Shown here piece after piece: positions 38,867-59,580 of a DNA stretch of 64,000 nucleotides. Location: the NCBI GenBank assembly GCA_013374015.1, contig BLLL01000002.1, positions 62,001-126,000 on the forward strand, written 5' to 3'. A model generated the notes under the pieces. It did no database searches and was not told the origin of the DNA. It saw only the letters and a program-made list of their open reading frames with translations. Numbering within the stretch: position 1 is the first letter of the stretch; every line of letters starts with the position of its first letter. The DNA comes from Candidatus Desulfovibrio kirbyi. Lineage in GTDB: Bacteria; Desulfobacterota; Desulfovibrionia; Desulfovibrionales; Desulfovibrionaceae. A program made the translations under genes and the position numbers.

Positions 38867-41173
38867 ATGAAAAAGGTTTGTATTATTTTGTTAATGCTGG
38901 CGTTGTTTGGTTGCGAGGAAAGGGGCAGAGGGGCAGGAGTTCCGGTTAAGCCTCCTGTTGATGGAGGGGGCGGGACAATTCCGCCTGTTGATCCTCCTGT
39001 TTCGACTTTGCCGTCTTCTGACATTCAGACGGATAAGGATGCACTGGCGAGCGGAGAGGCGAATCTTTCTGACCGTCCTGTTGGGGGGTATGCAAAAACA
39101 GACACGGGGGACTCAACGTCTACCGGTACGGTGACAGGGGAAGCTGCGGAAGTTAACAACAATGTTTATGGCGCCTTCTCTGAGGTTATGGAATCCGGCA
39201 ATGCGGAAGCCTCTGGCACAGTGAATTTGAGTGACAGTGCTGTTACAGGCGATGTCACCGGCGCACTGGCTGCAACCGAGAAAGAAGGAAACGCCACTGC
39301 CACTGGAGATGTTGTCCTGTCAGATAGTACCGTAACTGGAGACGTAACCGGCGGGTACGCTGAAACGAGCAATGGAGACGCCACGGCTACAGGAAGTATA
39401 ACCGGAGAAGCGGTGACCATAACCGGTAATGAGTCGGACGGTATCAGTAACGTTTTCGGAGCCGCTGCACTAGTTACAGAGATCGGACATGCGGAGGCTA
39501 AAGGCAGTGTGAACATAACGGGGGGGGGGACAATCACCGCCACAACAGTAGCAGGGGCAGTAGCCATAACAGAGAACGGACATGCGATAGCCGGTCTGAA
39601 ACATGTCTATGGTGCTGAACGTGACGAGGAGCCTGTAGGGGCTACGGTTACGCTGAACGACACGACTGTAAACGGCTCAGTCTGGGGCGGTTATGCCGAA
39701 ACGAAACACGGCGACCTTCAGAACTATACAGAGGGGAACTATGACGAAAATGATAATCTTATAGGGGTGGTTGACGCAGGCGATGCCTTTGCGGTCAATA
39801 ACCATGTAAATATCACAGACAAGACAACCGTGTCAGGGTCTGTCTATGGTGGGGTTGCCAAGGCTTTTGAGGCATATAGGGTTCAAGCCGATCTGAATAA
39901 TATTACCGTAAAGGATAGCACCGTCAGCAATAACATAATGGGGGGTTTTGCAGAAGTTACAGCAGGGGGCACAGTACATTATCTTTATTCTGAAAGGAAT
40001 AATGTAATGGTTGACAACTCCACAGTAGAAGGCGGTGTTTATGGAAGTTTTGTCTCTATAACAGAAGAGGCTTCTATAGAGAGTGTATATGCGGCAGAAA
40101 ACACGGTTTTTATCAAGGGGAAAGACACTGTTATTAACGGTACAATTACAGGAGGATTGATACAGGTTGAAGGAGTAGCAGGGTCAATAGATGCAGAATA
40201 TCCGTCTTCTGATTTCCACGCTGTACGTAACAGTATTTGGTTAGAGGGTGTACCCGACCTGAATGGAGCAAAGATTTATGGTGGCCGTTTTGTCGGTGAC
40301 GCTGACAATCTTGTATCTACGGACTATGAAGCATCGGGAGATGATCCGGCGTACACAAGGAGGAACTATGATTTTTTTGGGCTCAACACCCTCGTTGTAA
40401 ACGATTATACAGGGACGGGAAAAATTGATACGATCAGTAACATTCAGTACTTCATGTTCCGTCTGGCTCCTGATAACCACTTGACAGCGGATACGGCAGT
40501 TCTGAAAACAGTAAACCTTTATCTGGGCGATGGTGGTGATGGCAGCGGATGGGGATCAATGAGCATGGTCGGGAATTGGGGAGGAATGGACGGGTCTTCA
40601 ACTTCTTCTTTTGGAGAGGGAATCCAGTACTCGGGAGCCATACGCCCCGGACTGGGCGTAGGCGACACCATTTATCTGATTGCGGCAGACAACGCCTGGA
40701 ACTATGACGGCTCCAAGGCGGCAGTTGAAGGAGTAGACTTTGAAAGCACGACGGTAAAAGCGCAATGGGGGTCATTGTTTGAACAGGAACTGACGACCCA
40801 TTTAGAGGACAATAATATCATTGCGAGAGTAACAGGAACGTCTGACTTAGGGGATGAGTCCGGCATAACATATTTCAATATGCCGATCAGTAATTCAGTA
40901 GGTATTGAGCAGGTAAAAGCGAGCAATGTCCAGTTAAAGGACTTTGAGAAAAAGGTAACATATGCCTCTGACGGCTCAATGATTGCTCGACACAGCAAGG
41001 GGCATCACACGGGAGATGGTGCCCGTATCCTGACACAAGACCAAGTAGAGCGCAGGGAAGCGCGTAAAGCTGCATGGCAGTCTCTGACGGACGAGCAGAA
41101 AGCCGAGAGACGCGCAGCGCGACAGACTCGCCCAGACGGGGCAATAATCGAGCATGGACACCGCCACAAGTAA
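38867..41173 (+). CDS. Repeat-rich beta-helix-like lipoprotein
   Basis: Lipobox LALFGC; recurrent VTGDVTGGYAET/NGSVWGGYAET/GSVYGGVAK units; charged tail LTDEQKAERRAARQTRP...HGHRHK. Confidence 0.7.
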   Translation: MKKVCIILLMLALFGCEERGRGAGVPVKPPVDGGGGTIPPVDPPVSTLPSSDIQTDKDALASGEANLSDRPVGGYAKTDTGDSTSTGTVTGEAAEVNNNVYGAFSEVMESGNAEASGTVNLSDSAVTGDVTGALAATEKEGNATATGDVVLSDSTVTGDVTGGYAETSNGDATATGSITGEAVTITGNESDGISNVFGAAALVTEIGHAEAKGSVNITGGGTITATTVAGAVAITENGHAIAGLKHVYGAERDEEPVGATVTLNDTTVNGSVWGGYAETKHGDLQNYTEGNYDENDNLIGVVDAGDAFAVNNHVNITDKTTVSGSVYGGVAKAFEAYRVQADLNNITVKDSTVSNNIMGGFAEVTAGGTVHYLYSERNNVMVDNSTVEGGVYGSFVSITEEASIESVYAAENTVFIKGKDTVINGTITGGLIQVEGVAGSIDAEYPSSDFHAVRNSIWLEGVPDLNGAKIYGGRFVGDADNLVSTDYEASGDDPAYTRRNYDFFGLNTLVVNDYTGTGKIDTISNIQYFMFRLAPDNHLTADTAVLKTVNLYLGDGGDGSGWGSMSMVGNWGGMDGSSTSSFGEGIQYSGAIRPGLGVGDTIYLIAADNAWNYDGSKAAVEGVDFESTTVKAQWGSLFEQELTTHLEDNNIIARVTGTSDLGDESGITYFNMPISNSVGIEQVKASNVQLKDFEKKVTYASDGSMIARHSKGHHTGDGARILTQDQVERREARKAAWQSLTDEQKAERRAARQTRPDGAIIEHGHRHK

Positions 41174-43748: not shown

Positions 43749-44594
43749 ATGATTCTGCTCAACGGCAAAGAAACCGCTCAGGGGATACTGCGGGAACTCT
43801 CCGCTTCTGTGGCTTCCGCCGGCTGCCGTCCGCCGGGTCTCGCCGTTATTCTGGCGGGTGAAGATCCGGCTTCGCAGATTTATGTGCGCGCCAAAGAGAG
43901 AGCCTGCGGTGAGGTGGGGATTGTGCCCGTGAGCTTTACACTGCCTGCGGCCACGCCTCAAAGCGAACTTCTGGCGCTTATCCGCGACTGCAACACACGG
44001 CAGGATATTGACGGCATACTGCTGCAACTGCCGTTGCCGCTGGGCATTGAGCCTGAAACCTGCCTGCTGGCTATTGATCCCGGCAAGGATGTGGACGGTT
44101 TTCATCCGGAAAATGTCGGAAGGTGTTCACTGGGCCTGCCGGGCTTTATGCCCTGTACGCCCGCAGGAGTTCTGGAGCTTTTGCGTCGGTATCAGCTTTC
44201 GCCGAGCGGTAAAAAAGCCGTGGTTGTCGGCAGATCAAATATTGTTGGCAAGCCGCTGGCCTCCCTTTTGTACAGACAGGGAGTGGACGCCACAGTCACA
44301 ATCTGTCATTCCAAAACACAGGGGCTTGCGCGGGAATGTTGTGAAGCGGACTTTCTTTTTGTGGCAATGGGGCGTCCCGAAATCATAACCGCGGACATGG
44401 TGAAGGAGGGCGTTGTCGTTGTGGACATAGGAATTAGCCGTACCGCAGACGGCTTGCGCGGCGATGTGGATTTTGCAAGCGTCAGTCTCAAGGCGCGCGC
44501 CATTACGCCCGTGCCGGGAGGCGCCGGCCCTATGACCATCGCCATGCTGATGCAAAATACCGTGCAGGCGTGGAAAAAGCGTATGAATATCTAG
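43749..44594 (+). CDS. folD: Methylenetetrahydrofolate dehydrogenase/cyclohydrolase FolD
   Basis: VILAGEDPASQIYVRAKERAC, DGILLQLPLP, KDVDGFHPEN, VVGRSNIVGKPLASLL. Confidence 0.96.
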   Translation: MILLNGKETAQGILRELSASVASAGCRPPGLAVILAGEDPASQIYVRAKERACGEVGIVPVSFTLPAATPQSELLALIRDCNTRQDIDGILLQLPLPLGIEPETCLLAIDPGKDVDGFHPENVGRCSLGLPGFMPCTPAGVLELLRRYQLSPSGKKAVVVGRSNIVGKPLASLLYRQGVDATVTICHSKTQGLARECCEADFLFVAMGRPEIITADMVKEGVVVVDIGISRTADGLRGDVDFASVSLKARAITPVPGGAGPMTIAMLMQNTVQAWKKRMNI

Positions 44595-44631: not shown

Positions 44632-45705
44632 ATGTATCGCAACGCGAAAAATGTCGGCTACTGCATGATAGGGCAGGGCGCTTTAGCTCAGCTGGGGGAT
44701 ATTCTGTCGCCTTTGCGCGTTGGGCGCAAAAGCCCGGCAGTGTTTTTTCTGGATCATTATTTTATCGGCAGCCCCCTGCAGTTGCCTGTGGAAACAGGGG
44801 ATTTGACGCTGCATATCGACACAGCCCGGGAACCCACAACGCAGAGCGTGGACATGTACGCCGCGCAGGTGAAGGAGTTTCTGGACGGCGCCTGTCCGTG
44901 CGCGCTGCTGGCCTTCGGCGGCGGCTCCACGCTGGATACGTGCAAATGTGTCGGCAATTTGCTCACAAATTCCGGAAAAGCTGAGGAATATCAAGGATGG
45001 GAACTGGTCAGGCACAAAGCGCCCTATAAAATTGCCGTGCCAACGCTTGCCGGCACCGGTTCTGAAAGCTCGCGCACCGGCATTATCTGCAACGAGGCAA
45101 AAAATTTGAAACTCGGTATGAACAGTGATTTTACCATGTTCGACCAAGTGATTCTGGACGCTGATTTGACGGCGTCAGTGCCGCGCAATCAGTATTTCTA
45201 CACGGGTATTGACACATATATGCACTGTTTTGAAAATATTTCAGGGTCATATCGTAACGCTGTCGTGGACGCCTTGGCGGAAAAGGCCATGAGCATGTGC
45301 AAGCGTATTTTTCTTTCTGATGATATGATGAGTGACGAAAACCGCGAGCGGATGCTGATAGCCTCCTATCTGGGCGGCATGGCCGCAGGTTTTGTGGGCA
45401 CGGTGCACCCGGTTTCCGCAGGGTTGAGTATGGTTTTGCATATGCGTCACGGCATTGCCAACTGTTATGCCCTTATTGTCCAGGAAGACATTTATCCTGA
45501 AGAATATAAAGATGTTATGGCTATGCTTTCGCGCCAGAACATTGATCTGCCCAAAGGCATTTGTAAAAATCTGACTGAGGAGCAGTACGCCAGCCTGTAC
45601 GAAGCGACAATCGTGCACGAAAAGCCGCTTGTCAACCGTCTTGGCCCGGATTTTAAAAAAATATTTACAAAAGAGAGTGTTATTGAGCGCTTCAGGCGCA
45701 TGTGA
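44632..45705 (+). CDS. kdnB: Iron-containing alcohol dehydrogenase family, KdnB-like
   Basis: AFGGGSTLDTCKCVGNLLTN, PTLAGTGSESSRTGIICN, FDQVILDADL, FYTGIDTYMHCFE; resembles Shewanella KdnB in layout; paired with KdnA-like aminotransferase. Confidence 0.65.
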   Translation: MYRNAKNVGYCMIGQGALAQLGDILSPLRVGRKSPAVFFLDHYFIGSPLQLPVETGDLTLHIDTAREPTTQSVDMYAAQVKEFLDGACPCALLAFGGGSTLDTCKCVGNLLTNSGKAEEYQGWELVRHKAPYKIAVPTLAGTGSESSRTGIICNEAKNLKLGMNSDFTMFDQVILDADLTASVPRNQYFYTGIDTYMHCFENISGSYRNAVVDALAEKAMSMCKRIFLSDDMMSDENRERMLIASYLGGMAAGFVGTVHPVSAGLSMVLHMRHGIANCYALIVQEDIYPEEYKDVMAMLSRQNIDLPKGICKNLTEEQYASLYEATIVHEKPLVNRLGPDFKKIFTKESVIERFRRM

Positions 45706-45714
45706 CGGTGTGCT

Positions 45715-46908
45715 ATGGACATAAAAATCAATTTCAGCGGTCGTTCCGTCCGCTATACAGAAGAAGAAATTGCCGTTGTTGTGGAGGCCATGCGCAACGC
45801 GGATCCTTTGACTCAGGGCCGCTATCTGCGCGAATTTGAACGCGGATTCGCGCGCTATCAGCGGGTGGCTGAAGGCTCGTGTTTTGCCGTTATGAACGGG
45901 AGCGCTGCCTTGGAACTCTCCGCCCAGCTTTGCCGTTTTGTTTCCGGGGATGAGTTTGTCATTCCGGCGCACACTTTTACGGCTTCCGCTTATCCCTATC
46001 TCAAAAAGGGCGCGGCGCCCGTCTGGGCGGATGTGGACCCGCGCACCCGTGTTGTGACGACAAAAACCATTGAGCGGGCGCTTACCCCAAAGACAAAGGC
46101 CGTTGTCGTTGTGCACCTGTACGGCTACATGGCGGATATGCCAGAGATTGCGGCGCTGTGCCGTGAGCGTGGCCTGTTGCTCATTGAAGACACCGCCCAG
46201 GCTATCGGCACGGAAACAGACGGGAAAAAAGCCGGCAGTTTTGGCAATATGGCCATTTTTTCTTTTCATTCACATAAAAATCTGACCACGCTGGGTGAAG
46301 GCGGCATGCTGTACGTGCGCGATCCGGCCGGCGCCGCAGTTGTGCCGGCATTGCGTCACAACGGGCATTGCGCCTATGATTTTGAGCGTCCCGACTACTG
46401 GAAACCCGCTATGGGCAATGTGGACATTCCCGTGCTGGGTGATTTACCGCTTATGCCGAACAACTACTGCCTGGGTGAAGTGGAATGCGCGCTCGGCTCC
46501 AAGCTGCTTGAGCGTATCGACTTGATCAATGACGAAAAACGTGAAAGAGCGCTCAGATTTATAGACGCGCTGGCGGACTGTCCCGAACTGGAATTTCACC
46601 GTGTCGCCTCCCGTCGCCACAACTATCACCTGCTGGCCGCCAGGATGACCACAGGCCGGGAGATGCGCGACAGATTTTTGCGCGCCATGTTTGAAAAAGG
46701 CGTAAAGTGCGTTGTGCAGTATCTGCCGCTCAATCGCTATGATTTCTACAAACGTCTGGGATATGGGCATGCAAACTGCCCTGACGGCGACGCATTTTTT
46801 GACTGCATGGTGTCTTTTCCTTTCCAACACTGGCTTTCAGAAGACGATATGGCGTATATGCTGGGCGCTACGCGTGAAGTCCTCCAAGTCCTCCGCAGCC
46901 TACGGTAA
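45715..46908 (+). CDS. kdnA: DegT/DnrJ/EryC1 aminotransferase, KdnA-like
   Basis: VMNGSAALELSAQL, VIPAHTFTASAYPYLKKGAAPVWADVDP, LLIEDTAQAIGTETDGKKAGSFGNMAIFSFHSHKNLTTLGEGG. Confidence 0.65.
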   Translation: MDIKINFSGRSVRYTEEEIAVVVEAMRNADPLTQGRYLREFERGFARYQRVAEGSCFAVMNGSAALELSAQLCRFVSGDEFVIPAHTFTASAYPYLKKGAAPVWADVDPRTRVVTTKTIERALTPKTKAVVVVHLYGYMADMPEIAALCRERGLLLIEDTAQAIGTETDGKKAGSFGNMAIFSFHSHKNLTTLGEGGMLYVRDPAGAAVVPALRHNGHCAYDFERPDYWKPAMGNVDIPVLGDLPLMPNNYCLGEVECALGSKLLERIDLINDEKRERALRFIDALADCPELEFHRVASRRHNYHLLAARMTTGREMRDRFLRAMFEKGVKCVVQYLPLNRYDFYKRLGYGHANCPDGDAFFDCMVSFPFQHWLSEDDMAYMLGATREVLQVLRSLR

Positions 46909-46929
46909 AAGGCGTTGTGCGGCACGGCT

Positions 46930-48567
46930 GTGAAAGAACGCTGCATCATTATTCCCGCAGTCAAAAAGAACGCCGTCATACCGGACCAGTTGGTCAAAAA
47001 GCTGGCCGGCGTTACGCTTATGGAGCGCGCCATTCAAACGGCGCGTTGTGTGGCGTCTGAAGAGGATATTGTGGTCGTTACGGACAGCGAGGAAATATCG
47101 CTGATTTGCGAACGGGCCGGCGTGTGCTTTCGCTACAACAATGCCCTGCATTTTACAAGCCTTGATATTGTGGCGGAATTGCGCGAAACGCTGTGCGAGC
47201 TTGTCCCCCTGTATGCGCATCTGCTCATACTGCGCGCGTCCTGTCCGTTGTTGACCGGGCCGGATGTGGAAGACGCCTGGAGAAAATACCGCGGCGCCGA
47301 AGCTGACGGACTTGTGACCGTAAAGAGTGTGCGGCAGCGAATCTGGAATGTGCGCAACGGTGCGCTGGGGAGTCTGCTTGGCAGTGAGAACAGCGGTGAA
47401 GAGCGGTTTCTGGTGGAAAGCCGCGCCCTGATTATTCTGCGCTCCGCCTTGCTGCTCAACGCCGTATCCGGCAAAATTATTCCCTATTTTCTGAACGAGC
47501 GTTCCATTGAAATCCAGAGCTATCAGGACTGGTGGATTTGTGAACATCTGCTTATGCGCCGCCATATCGTCTTTGTTGTGGCGGGATACCCGGCCATCGG
47601 CATGGGGCATGTGTACCGTGCGCTTATGCTGGCGCACGAAATCACCAACCACAAGATAACCTTTGTCTGCACCCGTCAGAGCGAGCTGGCTGTGAAAAGC
47701 ATTGCTGAAAAAGATTACCGCAGTGTGCGCCAAGGGCAGGACACTCTGACCGATACCGTGCTGCGTCTGCGTCCTGACCTTGTTGTGAACGATATCCTGA
47801 ATACGGACATGCTCTATATGACGCGCCTGCGTGCCGCAGGCGTATGCTGCGTCAATTTTGAAGACGAAGGCCCGGGCGCGGGCATGGCGGATCTTGTGGT
47901 CAATGCGTTGTACGAAGGCGCGCAAAGCACACAGCGTTTGTGTTGCGGGCCGGAATATTTTTGTCTGCGTGACGAGTTTGTGAGCGCCGAGCAAAACCAG
48001 CTGCGCGACGCGGTCAAGGTTGTGCTGATCACCTTTGGCGGAACGGATTCGCGCAACTTTTCGCGGCGTGTGCTGGATGTTGTCGAGCCGGTGTGCCGGG
48101 GCATGGGCATTGCCGTTCGCCTGGTGGCAGGCCCCGGCTATGCGCATAAAAAAGCTATGGAAGATCATCTGCGGGCATTGAAAAACGATCTTGTTGAATT
48201 TACCTGGGCAACAAACGCCATGAGCCGTATGATGGAGGGCGCTGACCTGGCCGTCTGTTCCGCCGGACGCACACTGTATGAGCTTGCCCATATGCGTGTG
48301 CCCGCCATGGTGGTGGCGCATCATGAGCGCGAGGTCAGCCATTCTTTTGCGCGTCCGCGCAACGGTTTTGCTTTTTTGGGCATTATGGACCGTATTGATG
48401 ATGTAAAACTGCGCAATGTGTTTTTGGCCATGCTGCGGCAATCACGGCGCGCGCGGTTTTTTGAGCGGCAGGCGCGTCTTGATTTCAGAAACAACAAGGC
48501 GAAGGTTGTGGGGATGATGCTGGACTTGCTGAAGGAAAAGGAGGCTGTGGCGTGCCGAACAGCATGA
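46930..48567 (+). CDS. Bifunctional: N-terminal cytidylyltransferase (KdsB/NeuA-like) fused to SpsG/PseG-like nucleotide-sugar hydrolase/GT-B domain
   Basis: N-term CIIIPAVKKNAVIPDQLVKKLAGVTLMERAIQTA...VVTDSEEI; C-term GYPAIGMGHVYRALMLAHEI and FGGTDSRNFSRRVLDVV, CSAGRTLYELAHMRVPAMVV. Confidence 0.75.
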   Translation: MKERCIIIPAVKKNAVIPDQLVKKLAGVTLMERAIQTARCVASEEDIVVVTDSEEISLICERAGVCFRYNNALHFTSLDIVAELRETLCELVPLYAHLLILRASCPLLTGPDVEDAWRKYRGAEADGLVTVKSVRQRIWNVRNGALGSLLGSENSGEERFLVESRALIILRSALLLNAVSGKIIPYFLNERSIEIQSYQDWWICEHLLMRRHIVFVVAGYPAIGMGHVYRALMLAHEITNHKITFVCTRQSELAVKSIAEKDYRSVRQGQDTLTDTVLRLRPDLVVNDILNTDMLYMTRLRAAGVCCVNFEDEGPGAGMADLVVNALYEGAQSTQRLCCGPEYFCLRDEFVSAEQNQLRDAVKVVLITFGGTDSRNFSRRVLDVVEPVCRGMGIAVRLVAGPGYAHKKAMEDHLRALKNDLVEFTWATNAMSRMMEGADLAVCSAGRTLYELAHMRVPAMVVAHHEREVSHSFARPRNGFAFLGIMDRIDDVKLRNVFLAMLRQSRRARFFERQARLDFRNNKAKVVGMMLDLLKEKEAVACRTA

Positions 48568-49256
48568 AGGGCAAAACAGCGGCGGTGGTGCAGGCCCGGC
48601 TCGGCTCAAGCCGTCTGCGGATGAAATCCCTGTTTTGTCTGCGTGATACACCTGTCATCAACTGGGTTGTCCAGAGGCTTGCGCGGGCGGCCTGTCTTGA
48701 CAGCATTGTGGTGGCCATTCCGGACACAGCCCTTGATCAGGTATTGTACACGCACCTGCGGCGTCACAACATCCCCTGTTTTGTCGGGCCGGAAGAGGAC
48801 GTGCTCGCGCGCATGCTGATGGCCGCAAAATTCTGTGATGCGGGCCTTGTGGTGCGCGTGTGCGCGGATAACCCTCTGGTGTGGGGTGAGGCTGTTGATC
48901 GGCTGCTTGCCCATTACAAGGGCACTGTCTGCGATTATGCCTATAACCATATACCCAGAAACAACCGCTGGCCGGACGGCCTGGGCGCTGAGGTCGTTTC
49001 CCGCGATCTGCTGGAAGAACTGGACGCAAAGGCCAAACAAATTTCACAGCGCGAGCACTGTTTGAACTATATCTGGGACAATGCCGGGCTTTTTCGTATT
49101 TCCACCTTTGACCCTGTGGAAGCCTGGCTTTGCCGCCCTGATCTCAAACTGGACATGGACACGCCGGAGGATTTCAGACGCCTTGCCCTGCTGCCCCTGT
49201 CTTCTGATTCTGATGCGCGCGCCATTGTACGTGCCTTTGATGAGGCCGCAACATAG
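48564..49256 (+). CDS. SpsF-like cytidylyltransferase family protein
   Basis: AAVVQARLGSSRLRMKSLFCLRDTPVINWVVQRL, VRVCADNPLVWGEAVDRLL, KLDMDTPEDFRRL. Confidence 0.8.
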   Translation: MKGKTAAVVQARLGSSRLRMKSLFCLRDTPVINWVVQRLARAACLDSIVVAIPDTALDQVLYTHLRRHNIPCFVGPEEDVLARMLMAAKFCDAGLVVRVCADNPLVWGEAVDRLLAHYKGTVCDYAYNHIPRNNRWPDGLGAEVVSRDLLEELDAKAKQISQREHCLNYIWDNAGLFRISTFDPVEAWLCRPDLKLDMDTPEDFRRLALLPLSSDSDARAIVRAFDEAAT

Positions 49257-50077: not shown

Positions 50078-52469
50078 ATGAAGGTAGCTTTTCTTGACAT
50101 TCAAAATTTTAGAAAACTTCAGTCTGTTCAGATAGAACTTGCAGAAAAGCAGACTGTTTTTGTTGGCGCAAATAATAGCGGCAAAACATCAGCAATACAC
50201 GCTCTTGATAAATTTCTTAATCAAGCAAAGGAACACAAAGAAACAGATGATGAAGACAGTATAAATAGCAGTCTCTGGTTTGTTGTGGAAGATTTTACCC
50301 TTTCTCTATGGGACAAAATAAATAATATTGGCTCGACATGGGAATCACTTAGCGATGATGAGCCATTTCCCGCTCCAGTGCTTGATGAATGGACTGGACT
50401 TTTGCCATTTCTTGATGTCTGGCTCAAAGCTGAGGCGAATGAATACCACTATATCTACAAGCTAATCCCCACTCTTGATTGGGGTGGTGGATTGTTGGGC
50501 ATACGTCTCCGGCTTGAACCAAAAGAAAAACAGTTGGAGCAGTTGCTTGCCGACTATCGACAGACTAGGCAGCGGGCTAAAAAGAATTTGCAACGTTCTC
50601 AATCAGAGGCTGGACAAATATCGCAAAAATATCTAGAGCGAGCCTTTTGGCCTAAGGATATGAAAGATTTTTTAAGCAGGAAACTGCGAACATATTTTGC
50701 GGTTCGCTATTATATTCTTGATCCAACAAAATTCAGTTGTGGTAGTGGTGTTGTCCCTCAAGCTGTGCCAGAGTTTTCTTTTGCCCAAGATGGCGACCCT
50801 TTTGCGGGGATCATACGTGTTGATGCCATCAACGCCCAACGTGGTTTTGAGGATGCTGATGCCGCTATCAAAAATCAGCGTCTAGCCAGCCAATTTTATG
50901 AATATTTCAAAGTCCACCTGAATCCAGAAAACGCCCCTGATTCTCAAGACACTGACTTGCAAGCTATTTTAGCTGTATCACATTCCGAGCAATTATTTGA
51001 TAAAAGTCTGGCAGCATCATTTCAGAAACCAATAAAAGAACTTGAACATCTTGGTTATCCTGGTGTTTACAGCCCAAGCATCAAAGTTAGAACAAAGGTA
51101 CAGAGAAAGGATGTTCTCAGCCATTCAGCAGCAGTGCAATATAGTCTTGATGAAAATGGCAGCCTTGAAACTGATTGGTATCTACCTGAAACGTATACAT
51201 GGTTTAGGGTATCAAAATCTCATTTCTATGGTTTTCAGATTGATGCGTTTTCGAGATGGGTGGATGCGCGTAAACAAAGAAATTATGGAAGAGCGAAAAA
51301 ATGTAAATTCTCCTGAGCCGATACATCTTGTATTTGTTGAAGAGCCTGAAGCTCATCTCCATGCCCAGGTACAGCAAGTATTCATCCGTAAGGCTTACGA
51401 TGTATTGCGTAATAACACGAATTTGGGAGATAAACCACAATTTTCAACGCAACTGATAGTATCTACACATTCAAGTCACATTGCCCATGAATGTGATTTT
51501 GCCGAACTGCGCTATTTTCAGAGGATTCCAGCAACACCAGAGGTCAATATTCCCCATGCACATGTAGTTAACCTGTCCACAGTTTTTGCTGCTGCAAATG
51601 AGCCACAAAGGAGAGGGCAACAACCAAGCACGGAACAAGAGGCAGAGGAAGCAAAACGCCTTGCTACACAAAAATTTGTTACGCGCTATTTACAGACAAC
51701 CCATTGCGATCTCTTTTTTGCGGATGCCGCAATTTTATTTGAGGGAGCAGGGGAACGTATGCTGTTGCCTCACTTTCTTAAATCTTACAAATATGGTGCA
51801 TTATCCTCGTGTTATATTTCACTACTGGAAATTGGTGGTAGTCACGCTTTTCGCCTGAGAAATCTGATTGAACATCTTGGCCTGACAACGCTCATCATAA
51901 CAGATATTGATTCTGTTGAGGCCAATCGTTCCGCCTGTATGGTAGCAAAAGGCGCAAGTCAAAAGACTGCCAATAGTACGTTAAAATCATGGATACCAAA
52001 CAAAGAAAGTATTGATGAGCTACTTGCACTTGATGATAATAGTAAAGAAAAAGTTGAGAGTAATTTTGGCGCGGCTATCCGCGTTACCTATCAAACGGCA
52101 GTTAATACTTGTATTGCTTGTAATCCAGAAGAAATATTTCCTCGCACATTTGAAGACGCACTGATTGCTGAAAATATAGCATTATTTGATAATGAAAGTA
52201 TTGATGACAATTTTACACAATTAATAAAAATAAAATCTAAGCTGTCAGACACACAAAATTCTTCTCTACAAAAAAAACTATTTGAATTGATTGCTAAAGA
52301 TAATTCATTTAATAAGGCTGCATTCGCCCTTGAGTTGTTATTTCATATAGACACTAATGAAATACAGATTCCAAATTATATAAAAGAAGGGCTTGCATGG
52401 CTTTGCAAGAAACTTGTCATTCCTAATACCATACAACAAGCTGTGGCAGCGGATGAGGAAGCGCAATGA
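50078..52469 (+). pseudogene. OLD-family ATP-dependent endonuclease (Gabija GajA-like), split by a +1 frameshift near 51195-51200
   Basis: ORF 50078-51316 has VFVGANNSGKTSAIHALDKFL (Walker A); ORF 51042-52469 has GLGYQNLISMVFRLM, VFVEEPEAHLHAQ, QLIVSTHSSHIA and TOPRIM-like LFEGAGERMLLPHFL...LIITDID. Confidence 0.8.
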
Positions 52470-54406
52470 GCCTCCCTGAGTCATCGCAGCTTACGCAAAA
52501 AGTCAGATGGCAAGAGGAAGCTGATACAACTATTCAACACTGTCTTTCCCTTGACCATCCCCAAAGTTTTTTTCTGTTCGCTGGAGCCGGTTCAGGCAAA
52601 ACAGGTTCTTTGGTTGCCGCATTAGACTTTGCCCGTGACAGTCTTGGCAAAAAACTTTTTCGTGATAAACGTCAGATTGGCGTGATTACATATACCAATG
52701 CTGCGGCAGATGAAATCATTCGTCGTAGCAAGCAATTCCCCTGTTTTTCCATCAGCACAATTCATAGTTTCGCGTGGCAGTTAATAAATCCATTTCAAGG
52801 GGATATCAAGACGTGGCTGACAAACAAACTGCAAAGCGACATCAAAGAATTGGAGCAAGGAAAAAGCCGTTCCAACGCATTTGAAATATCGCAAAAATGT
52901 GAGCGGTTGCGAAAGATTTCTATTAGTCATAGATTTACATATAGCCCCACTGGAGCCAACAGTGGGCGCGATTCATTAAACCATGGAGAAGTGATCAGTA
53001 TTTGTGCAGATTTTTTGACACGCCCCCTGATGCAGGAAATCTTTATCAGCCACTATCCAATACTGCTCATTGATGAAAGTCAGGATACTCGAAAAGAACT
53101 GATGGAAGTGTTTTTGGGCATACAGCATCGGTATCCTACGCAATTTATGCTCGGCCTTTTCGGTGACATGATGCAGCGTATTTATATGGACGGCAAGGAG
53201 CATCTGGCAGATTCAATCGGTGATGGTTGGGCTACTCCGGCCAAAGCAATCAATCATCGGTCGCCCAAGCGTATCATTCAGCTTATTAACGCAATTCGTA
53301 GTGAATCTGATGACCACCGGCAAAGCCCACGAGAAGACGCAGAAGAAGGAGCTGTGCGTGTATTTATCACCAATTCGACTTTTGCTGATAAGGAGGCGTT
53401 TGAGCAAAATGTCTGCCGTAAAATGGTGGATATGACGGGTGATGCTGCATGGAGTGCCCCTGATGCCAATGTGAAAATATTGACGCTGGAACACAAAATG
53501 GCATCTGTGAGACTTGGTTTTGCAGATATATATGATGCTTTTGATATTTCCAAAAAATTAAGATCACGTGCTTTTGAAAAGCTGACCTCTCTCAATCCAA
53601 AACCGCAAATTCGTGACCTTGCTTTTATTACCGAAATACTCCTGCCTCTTGTCCATGCTCACCGCATGGGAGATCGTTTCGGCGTGGCGAGTATTTTAAA
53701 GACACACTCCCCTCTTTTGCAGCCAGTTTCCGAGAATGTCCACGTTGATTCTGAACTCACACGTCAAGTCAAAGGAGCCAAACTTGCAAGCGAAGCATTG
53801 TTTAGGCTGTGGACAGATAATGCTGACCCCACGCTCAAAAGTATTGTTTCCTCTCTGTTAGACACCAACTTGCTGGATGTGCCTGACCGTCTAAAGCATG
53901 GGGCCGTTACAGCTAATGAAAGGGAAATGACAGGCACTTCGCCTGAGATTCATTTGGTTGAGGAAGAGGGGACTGATGGTATCGACTCAGAGGAGCGCAA
54001 CAAACGCCAAATGGCATGGGCTGCGTTCGTTAATGTGCCTTTTTCTCAACTTATATTGTTTCACCAGTATATCAAAGGAGAAAGCCTGTTTGATACTCAC
54101 CAAGGGGTTAAGGGCTTGGAATTCCCCCGTGTGATGGTCATTCTGGACGACGAGGCTGCTGGAGGGCATTTATTCAGCTATGACAAACTATTTGGTGCAA
54201 AAAGCCTGACTAAAATTGACAAAGACAATATCAGAAGCAATAAAGACAACTCACTGACACGCACAAGGCGACTTTTTTATGTGATTTGCAGCCGCGCACA
54301 GGAAAGCCTTGCGATTGTCATTTATTCCGTAAACCCAAGCCAAATACGCAGCACTTTGCTTGAAAAACATATTTTCGCTGAAGATGAGATCATTCTCAGC
54401 CAATAA
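52466..54406 (+). CDS. UvrD/Rep-family SF1 helicase (Gabija GajB-like)
   Basis: FLFAGAGSGKTGSLVAAL, VITYTNAAADEI, ILLIDESQDTRKELM, FGDMMQRIY, THQGVKGLEFPRVMVI, TRTRRLFYVICSRAQESLAI; ATGA overlap with upstream gene. Confidence 0.85.
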   Translation: MSLPESSQLTQKVRWQEEADTTIQHCLSLDHPQSFFLFAGAGSGKTGSLVAALDFARDSLGKKLFRDKRQIGVITYTNAAADEIIRRSKQFPCFSISTIHSFAWQLINPFQGDIKTWLTNKLQSDIKELEQGKSRSNAFEISQKCERLRKISISHRFTYSPTGANSGRDSLNHGEVISICADFLTRPLMQEIFISHYPILLIDESQDTRKELMEVFLGIQHRYPTQFMLGLFGDMMQRIYMDGKEHLADSIGDGWATPAKAINHRSPKRIIQLINAIRSESDDHRQSPREDAEEGAVRVFITNSTFADKEAFEQNVCRKMVDMTGDAAWSAPDANVKILTLEHKMASVRLGFADIYDAFDISKKLRSRAFEKLTSLNPKPQIRDLAFITEILLPLVHAHRMGDRFGVASILKTHSPLLQPVSENVHVDSELTRQVKGAKLASEALFRLWTDNADPTLKSIVSSLLDTNLLDVPDRLKHGAVTANEREMTGTSPEIHLVEEEGTDGIDSEERNKRQMAWAAFVNVPFSQLILFHQYIKGESLFDTHQGVKGLEFPRVMVILDDEAAGGHLFSYDKLFGAKSLTKIDKDNIRSNKDNSLTRTRRLFYVICSRAQESLAIVIYSVNPSQIRSTLLEKHIFAEDEIILSQ

Positions 54407-54437
54407 AGTATTTGACATTAAGAAAGGCACAAGCATC

Positions 54438-56408
54438 ATGGACAAACTCAAAATGCACTCCCCGGACATGACACAGGAAAATATCACCCGTATCCGCGAA
54501 CTTTTCCCCAACTGTGTCACCGAGGCCCATGATGAAAAGGGCGAAGTCAGGTTTGCGGTGGATTTTGATCTGCTGCGGCAGGAACTTTCCGATTCTCTGG
54601 TGGAAGGCCAGCAGGAACGCTATCGCCTTGATTGGCCCGGTAAGCGTCAGGCTTTACTCACTGCCAATGCTCCCATAGCCAAGACCTTGCGCCCCTGCAG
54701 GGAAGAAAGCGTTGATTTTGATACAACGAAAAATTTGTATATTGAGGGCGACAATCTGGATGCTCTGAAGCTCTTGCAGGAAAGCTATCTTGGCAGGGTC
54801 AAGATGATTTATATTGATCCGCCGTACAATACCGGCAATGATTTTATCTATAAAGATGATTTTTCGGAAAATACGGATGAATATTTTGTGCGGTCAAATC
54901 AAAAGGATGAAGAAGGCAACAGACTTTTTGCAAATACAGAAAGCAACGGGCGTTTTCATTCTGATTGGTTGAGTATGATGTATGGTCGTTTGAAACTTGC
55001 AAGGACATTATTGCGTGACGATGGGGTTATTTTTATCAGTATTGATGATAATGAAGTTGCGCAGTTGAGGAAGATTTGCGAAGAGGTGTTTGGGAGTGGA
55101 AATTTTGTTAATCAAATTGCTTGGGTAAATAACATTACGGGTAGGCAAATATCAGGATTGGGTGCGGCAAAGACTTACGAATATATTTTGATATATGCTA
55201 AAAATATTTCAAATCTATCAGTCTTTACTATATCCATAAATTTTGCAAAATCTGCAATGCCGGATGCTTATAAGGGGTTTAATAAGGATATACGGACGGA
55301 TGAACGCGGTGAATATGCCGTTGGGGATACTTTGTACAACCACAATCGTATATTTAATGAGGAAACACGACCGAACCTTGTTTTTTCCATATATTACAAT
55401 CCAGATACCGGAGCCATTGAACCTGACAATATTGGTGTTACCAAACAGGATTTTGTAGAATTGCTGCCACATAAAAATGGCGATGGCACTCATAAATACC
55501 ATGCGTGGAGATGGTCGCGGCAAAAAGTGGTCAATGAAAATTACGACCTAATCGTATTGCCAACAAATTCTGGTGGCTATGAAATCTATACCAAGATCCG
55601 TGAATTCAATAAGACAATCCTAAAAGACATTATTACTAACATATCGAATGGCGATACTGAATTCAAACAACTGTTTGAAGGCAAAAAGTGTTTTGACTAT
55701 CCCAAGTCATCTGACTTGTTAAAAACACTCTTTGGTGCTGTTTCAATTTCAGCCGACAGTACCATACTCGACTTCTTCTCCGGTTCCGCCACCACAGCCC
55801 ACGCCGTCATGCAGCTTAACGCCGAAGACGGCGGCAATCGTCAGTTCATCATGGTGCAGTTGCCTGAAGTTTGCGCTGCTGGCAGCGAAGCAGCTAAAGC
55901 CGGATATGAAAACATCTGCGAAATCGGCAAGGAACGCATCCGCCGTGCCGGCAAAAAAATCAAGGCAGCACGTCCCCTCACCACACAAAACTTGGACATC
56001 GGCTTTCGCGTCCTGAAAGTTGATTCCTCCTGCATGGAAGACGTGTACTACACACCGGACGCCACCAGCCAAAAACAATTGAGCCTGTTTACGGACAACA
56101 TCAAGAAGGATCGCCGCGACAAGCCGGAAGACCTGCTCTTTCAGGTACTCATTAACTGGGGCGTGGAACTGCACCTGCCCATCACACCCAAAACCATTCA
56201 GGGCAAAAAAGTCTTTTTCGTGGATGAAAACAGCCTTGTCGCCTGCTTCGACTCCGGCATAAATGATGCTTTCATCAAGGAACTTGTCAAGTTCCAGCCC
56301 TTGCGTGTTGTCTTTCGTGATGGCGGTTTTGCTTCAGATGATGCCCGCATCAACGCCGAACAGATATTTAAGCAACTATCGCCGGAAACCGAGGTAAAGG
56401 TGCTGTGA
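54438..56408 (+). CDS. Type III restriction-modification system methyltransferase (Mod)
   Basis: [78 protein letters not shown]. Confidence 0.92.
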
Positions 56409-56515
56409 AGCGCGGCAAACTTTGCAAAAATGCGGACAAGTTGTCGTCCGTCGAGCAGGCTTTTCTGGAAAGCATCAAACAGGCGCAAAAAAAGCTGGAA
56501 GGGAAAAATTCATGA
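56405..56515 (+). CDS. 36-aa microORF between mod and res
   Basis: GTG start overlaps the mod stop, TGA stop overlaps the res [39 protein letters not shown]. Confidence 0.55.
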
Positions 56516-59500
56516 AGCTCAAATTCAAAATACAGCCTTTTCAGGCGGAAGCTGTATCTTCTGTGGTTGATTGTTTTGCCGGGCAGCAATTTTCTTCCGG
56601 TCTGTCCTACCGTATTGACCCCGGCAAGGAGCGCAAGCCGGCTCGTCCTGTGCAGGTAAATTTATCCCTTCAGGAGCCGGAAGAATCTCCCGGCTGGAAA
56701 AATGCCGATTTGACTATCCCTGAAGAAGCCCTGCTGGACAATATTCACGCAGTACAGCGCAGGCAAAACCTCTTTTTATCGGATACATTATCCGAAAGCG
56801 CAGGTTGCCGATGCAATTTGGACGTGGAGATGGAAACCGGCACGGGCAAAACTTATTGTTATATTAAAACTATTTTTGAATTACATGAACGCTACGGCTG
56901 GGGAAAATACATCGTTGTTGTGCCGAGTATTGCCATCCGCGAAGGCGTCTATAAATCCCTGCAAATTACAGCCGACCATTTTGCTGAAACCTACCACAAA
57001 AAAGCCCGCTTTTTCATCTACAACTCCAAAAGCCTGCACCAGTTGGAGAGTTTTTCTTCCGACAGCGGCGTCAATGTCATGGTTATCAATATTCAGGCGT
57101 TCAACGCCACAGGTGCTGACAACCGCCGTATTTATGAAGAACTGGACGATTTTCAGTCGCGCAAGCCCATTGACGTTATCAGCGCCAATAGCCCCATACT
57201 CATTCTGGATGAGCCGCAGAAAATGGAAGGCGCGAAAACCCTTGAGGCATTGAAAAAATTCAAACCGCTGATGATATTGCGCTACTCTGCCACACACAGA
57301 ACACAGCACAACAAAATCCATCGTCTGGACGCTGTTGACGCCTACAATCAAAAGCTGGTTAAAAAAATCGCCGTGCGTGGCATCAGCGTCAAAGGCATAG
57401 CGGGAACCGCTCCCTATCTGTTTCTGGATTCCATAAAAATTTCCAGCCAGGCTCCAGTAGCCCGTATGGAAATAGAAATGCGGCAGAAAAGCGGTGCCAT
57501 AGTGCATAAACTCAAACGCCTTTGTAAGGGCGATGACCTGTTTGAACATTCCGAGAAACTGAACCAGTACAAAGGCTATGTCATTACAGAAATTGACTCG
57601 CGTTCCAATACCGTGGAATTTGCCAATGGCGTAACCATCAGCAACGTGGAAGCTATGGATGACGGCGCAGAAGACGCGCTGCGGCGCATACAAATTCGTG
57701 AAACCATACAATCCCATCTGGAGAAAGAACAAACACTCCATGCAAGGGGCATCAAAACGCTTTCTCTGTTTTTTATTGATGAAGTCAAAAAATATCGGGA
57801 CTATGACCAGAGCGACGAAAAAGGCGAATATGCCCATATCTTTGAAGAAGAATACACCCAGCTTGTCCAGAAATATACGGCCAACCTTGGGTCAGATAAA
57901 GAAGCACTCAAGGCATACTGGCAGGGCATTGATGTCAGCCGTACCCACAATGGCTATTTTTCCGTAGACAAGCACAAACGACTTGTTGATCCTTTAGTGA
58001 AGAAGACAGGCGAAGAAAAAGGGCTTTCTGATGACGTGTCAGCCTATAAACTTATTCTCAAAGACAAGGAACGCCTGCTTTCCTTTGAGGAGCCGGTACG
58101 TTTTATTTTTTCACATTCCGCCTTGCGTGAAGGCTGGGATAACCCAAATGTCTTTGGCATGTGCATGTTGAAGCACAGTGACAGCAATATTTCACGCCGT
58201 CAGGAAGTGGGGCGCGGTTTGCGCCTGTGCGTCAATCAAAACGGCGAGCGTATTGACACTCCGGCCATAGTGCATGACGTGAATGTGCTGACCGTTGTTA
58301 CCGGCGAGAGCTACACGGATTTTGTCTCGAACCTGCAAAAAGAAATCAGCGAGGCACTGTCTGCGCGTCCACGCAAGGCTGATGCGACCTACTTTACGGG
58401 TAAGACTTTGCGGACGGAAACGGGTGATGTCCAGGTTACTCCCATCATGGCAAACCAGATTTATCGCTACCTTGTCAAAAATGACTACACAGATAACTTC
58501 GATGCCATTACAGCGGACTACACCACAGCCAGAGAGCAGGGAACGCTTGCAGCTCTACCACCGGAACTTGCTCCATATGCGGATCAAATTCTTACTCTGA
58601 TTGACAATGTGTACAGCGAATCGCAGCTTCCGTTGCCGGAAAATGAGCGTGAGCAACAAATCAATCATTTGAACAAAAATTTTGATAAAAAGGAATTTCA
58701 GAACCTTTGGGACAAAATCAACCACAAGGCCGTGTACAGCGTTCATTTTGATTCGGCGGAACTGGTTAAAAACTGCATTACGGCTATTGATAAAGAACTT
58801 AAAGTTGCTCCGTTGCTCTACACGGTTGACTCCGGCACTCAAAATCAAAGCGTGACCGTTGAGGAATTGCGGAAAGGCGCGACATTCCGGCTGGAAAACA
58901 CGACTACAGACACTCTTGAAGGCTCTGCACACTCACAGGTGAGCTATGATCTCGTCGGCAAACTTGCGGAGAACACACAGTTGACGCGAGCGACCGTAGG
59001 CAAAATTCTTTGCAGCATTACGCCGGATGTCTTTGACAAATTTAAACAAAACCCTGAACAGTTCATCACCGAGGCTACACGCCTGATTCGGGAGCAAAAG
59101 GCGACAATTATCATTGAACGCCTGAGTTATGATACCACTGCCGAAAAATACGATTCCGGCATCTTCACCTCTCCGCCGCAAAAAATTGCCAAGAGCGCCG
59201 TCAAAGAAAAGCTGAAAAGGCATATCTACGACTACGCCGTGACGCAATCCGGCGTGGAGCGTGAATTTGTGGAAAAGCTGGATGTCAGCGATGAGGTGGT
59301 TGTGTACGCCAAACTGCCCGGCGGATTCTTTATCCCCACGCCCGTGGGCGACTATAACCCGGACTGGGCAATCGCCTTCAAGGAGGGTAAGGTTAAACAC
59401 GTCTACTTTGTGGCTGAAACCAAGGGTTCCATGTCTACAATGCAACTAAAGGCTATTGAAAAGAACAAAATCGAATGCGCCAGAAGGTTTTTTGAAAAAC

Positions 59501-59580
59501 TGAATACTGCGGCGCGGGATAAAGTTAAATACGATGTTGTGACCACCTACGGGAAGCTGATGGAAATTGTAACGCTCTGA
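56512..59580 (+). CDS. Type III restriction endonuclease subunit (Res), DEAD/DEAH helicase-nuclease
   Basis: [88 protein letters not shown]-terminal [23 protein letters not shown] nuclease motif. Confidence 0.92.

Follow-up and report, generated by a model that had tools for sequence, protein, structure and literature searches.

We found that four consecutive genes in the window (the whole 64,000-nucleotide stretch of DNA analysed here) appear to encode half of a pathway for a nonulosonate, a sialic-acid-like C9 sugar, namely its oxidation, amination, hydrolase and activation steps, with a NeuB-family synthase and a putative LIC12162-family transferase encoded elsewhere in the genome; we regard this reading as fairly probable. 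The assignment to the nonulosonate class is well supported, and the product is probably a sialic-acid-like nine-carbon sugar with an extra amino group. The model is built on gene content, linkage, co-occurrence across the genus, the loss and retention of motifs, and folds.

The four-gene cassette

The four ORFs lie consecutively on the same strand at 44632-49256, all intact and tightly packed, with gaps of 9 bp between the KdnB-like and aminotransferase (AT) genes and 6-21 bp between the AT and fusion genes, and a 16-bp overlap of the fusion and SpsF-like genes. An earlier note, made from the letters alone, had described the same close spacing, and its family assignments agree in outline with ours (Fe-ADH, DegT/DnrJ/EryC1, CTP_transf_3 plus PseG, and CTP_transf_3).

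43749..44594, + strand: folD, upstream neighbour, in a gene order conserved across the genus
44632..45705, + strand: KdnB-like iron-type alcohol dehydrogenase (Fe-ADH), proposed C9 oxidase, 357 aa
45715..46908, + strand: DegT/DnrJ/EryC1 PLP aminotransferase (AT), 397 aa; PF01041, 276 bits
46915..48567, + strand: fusion of a CTP_transf_3 N-domain and a PseG/SpsG-like C-domain, 550 aa from TTG
48552..49256, + strand: SpsF-like cytidylyltransferase, proposed CMP-nonulosonate synthetase, 234 aa; PF02348, 67 bits

Translation of the fusion gives 550 aa from the TTG at 46915 and 545 aa, the length first reported for it, from an in-frame GTG at 46930, which is the likely start codon. Upstream, folD ends 37 bp before the KdnB gene and is possibly co-transcribed with the cassette as a gene outside the pathway. 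The order coaX-eno-folD-KdnB-AT-fusion-SpsF is kept in most of the genus loci examined, with KdnB proteins 72-82% identical to that of the window; given this recurrent order, the cassette is a vertically kept unit beside housekeeping genes and no chance array. A mobile origin was rejected, there being no relatives of KdnB or the fusion in the plasmids searched and no KdnB relative in the viral contigs searched. No transferase gene lies within the four-gene cassette.

When compared by phmmer, the window KdnB matched Shewanella KdnB (5k8c) with E=3.6e-83 and 283 bits, as against 9e-25 and 91 bits for the next Fe-ADH family; 3rf7 was matched as well. The Asp/His metal-ligand motifs GIDTYMH, VHPVSAG and RHG are common to both proteins, with the D-x-x-x-H, H and H positions aligned. 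These similarities place the gene convincingly, as far as sequence comparison goes, in the KdnB (Kdo 8-oxidase) subfamily of Fe-ADH, as the note had suggested. The same cannot be said of its KdnA-like aminotransferase. KdnA (5k8b) is just one among a number of comparable PDB matches to AT: it comes tenth in a single-sequence search and 22nd of 34 when a seven-sequence profile is used, with scyllo-inositol, perosamine and other sugar aminotransferases ahead of it. The best curated model is PseC (217 bits, cut-off 423), and AT is closest in sequence to enzymes acting on keto-sugar nucleotides. KdnA orthology was therefore rejected, as AT is no closer to KdnA than to many DegT aminotransferases. 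Thus, by the similarity check that the note itself had put forward for the pair, KdnB stays within its subfamily and AT falls outside KdnA.

Elsewhere in the window, a 768-aa repetitive lipoprotein-like ORF with Ala/Gly/Thr repeats (38867-41173) has no Pfam match above cut-off. Downstream of the cassette, a GajA-like nuclease is split over two overlapping frames at 50078-52469 (model positions 1-346 and 347-726) and adjoins an intact-looking GajB at 52466-54406, so that the first gene of this Gabija system appears frameshift-broken. A type III restriction-modification pair (methyltransferase and restriction enzyme, 54360-59580) adjoins the Gabija genes.

The second locus and co-occurrence across the genus

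The synthase is encoded on another contig of the same genome:

G000:C1:184865-187659: second locus, NeuB and LIC12162 transferase
G000:C1:186595-187659: NeuB-family synthase with SAF domain (NeuB 244 bits, plus SAF)

This NeuB is single-copy in the genome, and its best PDB relative is SpsE of B. subtilis. It is followed directly by the LIC12162-family transferase (366 bits, cut-off 225) and then by a Sel1-repeat protein, a trio kept through the genus. The structure model of the transferase is poor (pLDDT 49), with only a weak GT-B-like half to be seen. Of the 79 genus genomes, 65 contain both the fusion and NeuB, 10 contain neither, and 4 are discordant; KdnB was never found without the fusion. 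Fisher tests of these co-occurrences (fusion, NeuB and KdnB) give p values of 2e-9 and 4e-13 with shared ancestry ignored; neither the co-occurrence nor the motif loss described below is phylogenetically independent, and one or two events may lie behind them.

The cassette had been put forward as a whole pathway of synthesis, activation and transfer. Of this, the predicted activation enzyme, SpsF, does lie in the cassette, but the synthase and the putative transferase belong to the second locus.

Relatives outside the genus

In one genome of another family in the same phylum (G236), KdnB, AT, the fusion, NeuB, a DUF4910 protein and SpsF follow one another in a single operon, the proteins being 36-63% identical to their Desulfovibrio counterparts. 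This all-in-one operon is a single case outside the genus. Together with the co-occurrence of NeuB, it supports the guess in the earlier note of a new nonulosonate-like residue. The DUF4910/DUF2172 protein between NeuB and SpsF (L110:4494-5867) is aminopeptidase-like, and a similar-looking protein adjoins NeuB at another locus (L109); it is possibly a sugar amide hydrolase of nonulosonate pathways.

We also found the fusion directly followed by NeuB in eight other genomes, including G090, G347 and Myroides indicus, with no KdnB, AT or SpsF near these pairs, the contigs of G283 and G488 being too short to judge. A scan of genome contigs with one divergent fusion as query yielded four loci.

Proposed pathway and precursor

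In the pathway that we infer (its substrates, site of amination, order of steps and acceptor alike), the PseG-like domain of the fusion would release a hexosamine from a nucleotide sugar, and NeuB would condense it with PEP to give a free nonulosonate. KdnB would then oxidise the CH2OH at the end of the chain, whose carbon (C9) corresponds to C8 in Kdo, AT would aminate the oxidised carbon, SpsF would activate the nonulosonate to a CMP-sugar, and the LIC12162 transferase would add it to a surface glycan. Alternatively, KdnB and AT may act on C6 of the hexose, with the same product. Amination at C9, the counterpart of C8 in Kdo8N, is suggested by analogy with the chemistry of KdnB on the terminal carbon of Kdo.

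The hexose precursor is the weakest point of the model, as neither of the usual routes to it was found. A ManNAc-type precursor would come from a UDP-GlcNAc 2-epimerase (NeuC/WecB, PF02350), which is absent from the window genome, and a PseB/LegB-type dehydratase (PF02719) has no match there either, the SDR matches in the genome being assigned to a WbpP/TviC-like 4-epimerase, a CDP-glucose dehydratase and GalE-like proteins. With neither a PseB-like dehydratase nor a 2-epimerase found, we do not predict a 6-deoxy product (C9 methyl), and it is plausible that KdnB has a hydroxyl at C9 to act upon. Since no known precursor route (NeuC/WecB, PseB or LegB) was found, we file the system as nonulosonate-type by its synthase, and not as neuraminic, pseudaminic or legionaminic.

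The resemblance of AT to 4-aminotransferases (PseC, WecE and perosamine-type enzymes are its closest relatives) keeps a second route under consideration, in which KdnB would oxidise a secondary hydroxyl of a UDP-hexosamine and the PseC-like AT would make a 4-amino sugar, leading to a 7-amino (C4-derived) nonulosonate. KdnB and AT would then replace PseB and PseC, with the PseG domain, NeuB and SpsF acting as in pseudaminic or legionaminic synthesis and the C9 hydroxyl kept. Such a route would fit both the missing PseB-like dehydratase and the G236 operon, where KdnB-AT stands in the position at which PseB-PseC would act. However, KdnB is related specifically to a primary-alcohol (Kdo C8) oxidase, with the metal and neighbouring motifs kept, and the cassette has no acetyltransferase partner; we consider this route rather unlikely, if clearly the strongest competitor to C9 amination.

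The fusion protein and CMP activation

The fusion consists of an N-domain (about residues 8-210) with the CMP-nonulosonate-synthetase fold and a C-domain (about 217-540) resembling PseG/SpsG UDP-sugar hydrolases, which agrees with the domain pairing read from the letters alone, as do the CTP_transf_3 and PseG matches. In an AlphaFold model (mean pLDDT 88), the N-domain matches the CMP-Kdn synthetase 9t4z and CMP-Neu5Ac synthetases, and the C-domain matches PseG 3hbm with a TM of 0.78 on target length. The G-x-G-H motif of PseG is present, with an invariant His (His232). We label the C-domain PseG-like instead of PseG because its score against TIGR03590 (118 bits) falls below the curated cut-off of 153.6.

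To the N-domain we applied a comparison of motifs between 21 KdnB-associated fusions (20 from the Desulfovibrio group, and G236) and 8 KdnB-free ones. Three cytidylyltransferase motifs, IPARGGSKGIPRKN, QPTSP and IDID, are mostly retained in the KdnB-free fusions. Each of the 21 KdnB-associated fusions has IPA[V/I]KK..IPDQLVK in place of IPARGGSKGIPRKN; QPTSP has become RASCP or RAGCP (RPTAP in G236), and IDID has become IEI-Q, -N or -A. Gone together are the Arg/Lys/Asn loop, the QPTSP Gln and the two acidic residues of DID, and the N-domain seems to have lost the ability to catalyse cytidylyl transfer. SpsF, which the note had already recognised as a cytidylyltransferase of this type, keeps QAR-GS-RL--K, the DNP Asp and LD-x-D in 12 of 12 members compared. 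This pattern of loss in the one and retention in the other suggests that SpsF is probably the real CMP-sugar synthetase of the pathway, and the simplest reading is that CMP activation passed to it once KdnB and AT had entered the pathway. Since the altered N-domain remains conserved, it has probably retained a function in structure or binding; in our model it would serve in something other than cytidylyl transfer.

That conservation could also be read as the mark of a divergent but active nucleotidyltransferase of new specificity, with SpsF activating a second sugar and the cassette making two activated sugars. Conservation extends to the altered motif IPA[V/I]KKNAVIPDQLVK, the fold is kept, and mean pairwise identity within the genus is nearly as high for the N-domain as for the hydrolase domain (71% versus 76%), but the joint loss of the loop, the QPTSP Gln and both DID acidic residues makes this distinctly improbable, and we retain SpsF as the predicted activating enzyme.

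Kdo and the lipopolysaccharide genes

The window genome comprises 43 contigs and 1,611,038 bp (largest contig 232,244 bp), with a completeness of about 99%. It has no match to KdsA (Kdo-8-phosphate synthase, TIGR01362) or to WaaA (Kdo transferase, PF04413), whereas the controls were positive. KdsA was found in 16 of 79 genus members and in nearly all other relatives; PF04413 had no match in any of the seven genus members tested and was present in three outgroups. Searches without a match do not prove that these genes are missing, but with so complete a genome and with controls that did match, an 8-amino-Kdo product is very unlikely here, and the amino-Kdo product that the earlier note had entertained was rejected for this genome.

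A separate cluster at C1:36516-40260 (L129:12517-16261) encodes an HpcH/HpaI aldolase, an NAD epimerase, a KdsB-like cytidylyltransferase (PRK13368, 315 bits), a hexapeptide acyltransferase and a HAD phosphatase, and may serve to make another ulosonic acid by way of an aldolase in a KdsA-free genome. The identity of KdnB, and this KdsB-like enzyme with a neighbouring aldolase that might supply a Kdo-like acid, would speak for a product that is 8-amino-Kdo or closely derived from Kdo. Against it stand the undetected KdsA and WaaA, an AT that is not KdnA-like, and a KdnB and fusion that track NeuB and in G236 lie in one operon with it; we consider such a product very unlikely.

KdsA and the cassette do not strictly exclude each other, as 13 of the 16 KdsA-positive genus genomes have the fusion. 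LpxC was found in none of the 24 genus members tested and is present in four outgroups, which raises the question of an alternative deacetylase or a different lipid. Desulfovibrio lipid A has been described chemically. Thiobarbituric acid, as an assay reagent, does not detect Kdo alone. Contradicting an earlier claim that there was none, an older chemical study of endotoxin from D. desulfuricans did report Kdo (PMC3354558); the strain used may differ from the genomes considered here. The window genome is that of a termite-gut symbiont, the Desulfovibrio phylotype ZnDsv-02; in describing this ectosymbiont of Trichonympha collaris, its authors note that several LPS genes have been lost (PMC7608387). 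The pathway is retained in the shrunken symbiont genomes of ZnDsv-02 and a 1.41-Mb relative, suggesting that it is needed on the cell surface.

Novelty and significance

The individual parts are all members of known families, but neither their combination nor the predicted product seems to have been described. In the literature searched, which was mostly open-access, we found no published pathway of this make-up and no paper that joins KdnB with nonulosonates; the earlier note likewise knew of none combining Kdn enzymes with SpsF/SpsG proteins. If the model is correct, KdnB chemistry (terminal amination of a sugar acid) extends from C8 octulosonates to C9 nonulosonates, a new sialic-acid-like sugar is predicted on common gut sulfate reducers, and a conserved cytidylyltransferase domain devoid of catalytic motifs is explained. 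The pathway also makes the surface chemistry of the genus testable, most members tested lacking KdsA, and neither WaaA nor LpxC having been found in any member examined for it. More speculatively, and we think improbably, Desulfovibrio would make a natural 9-amino-9-deoxy nonulosonate, the sialic-acid counterpart of 8-amino-Kdo, that replaces the surface role of Kdo in many KdsA-free members of the genus.

Comparison with known systems

Like the Shewanella KdnB/KdnA system (Kdo8N), the window system places a KdnB-subfamily Fe-ADH beside a DegT aminotransferase in a sugar-acid pathway that ends in cytidylyl activation. It differs in that its AT is not KdnA-like, it is linked to NeuB and a PseG domain, KdsA and WaaA are undetected, and the organism is a sulfate reducer of the anaerobic gut. 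Compared with the pseudaminic acid pathway (PseB-C-H-G-I-F), a PseG-like hydrolase, a NeuB/PseI-type synthase and a CMP-sugar synthetase are common to both, whereas no PseB-like dehydratase was detected in the window genome, no PseH lies beside the cassette, and the PseC, PseG, PseF and PseI models all score below their curated cut-offs. The fusion-NeuB pairs of G090, G347, Myroides indicus and others have the same fusion domain architecture, with NeuB adjoining the fusion; unlike the window system, they carry active-type cytidylyltransferase motifs and have no KdnB, AT or SpsF nearby.

B. subtilis requires spsC, D, E and G to make legionaminic acid and spsF to transfer it to the spore surface (PMC7439481), and this lends support to the roles proposed for the parts that the two systems have in common. 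A DegT aminotransferase, a NeuB-type synthase, SpsF and an SpsG/PseG hydrolase are common to the sps system (SpsC, D, E, F, G and M; PMC7439481) and that of the window. The latter is set apart by KdnB and by a pathway divided between two loci; its SpsG-like domain forms a fusion with a cytidylyltransferase domain that is catalytically altered, and neither a dehydratase of the SpsM type nor an SpsD acetyltransferase was found to accompany it.
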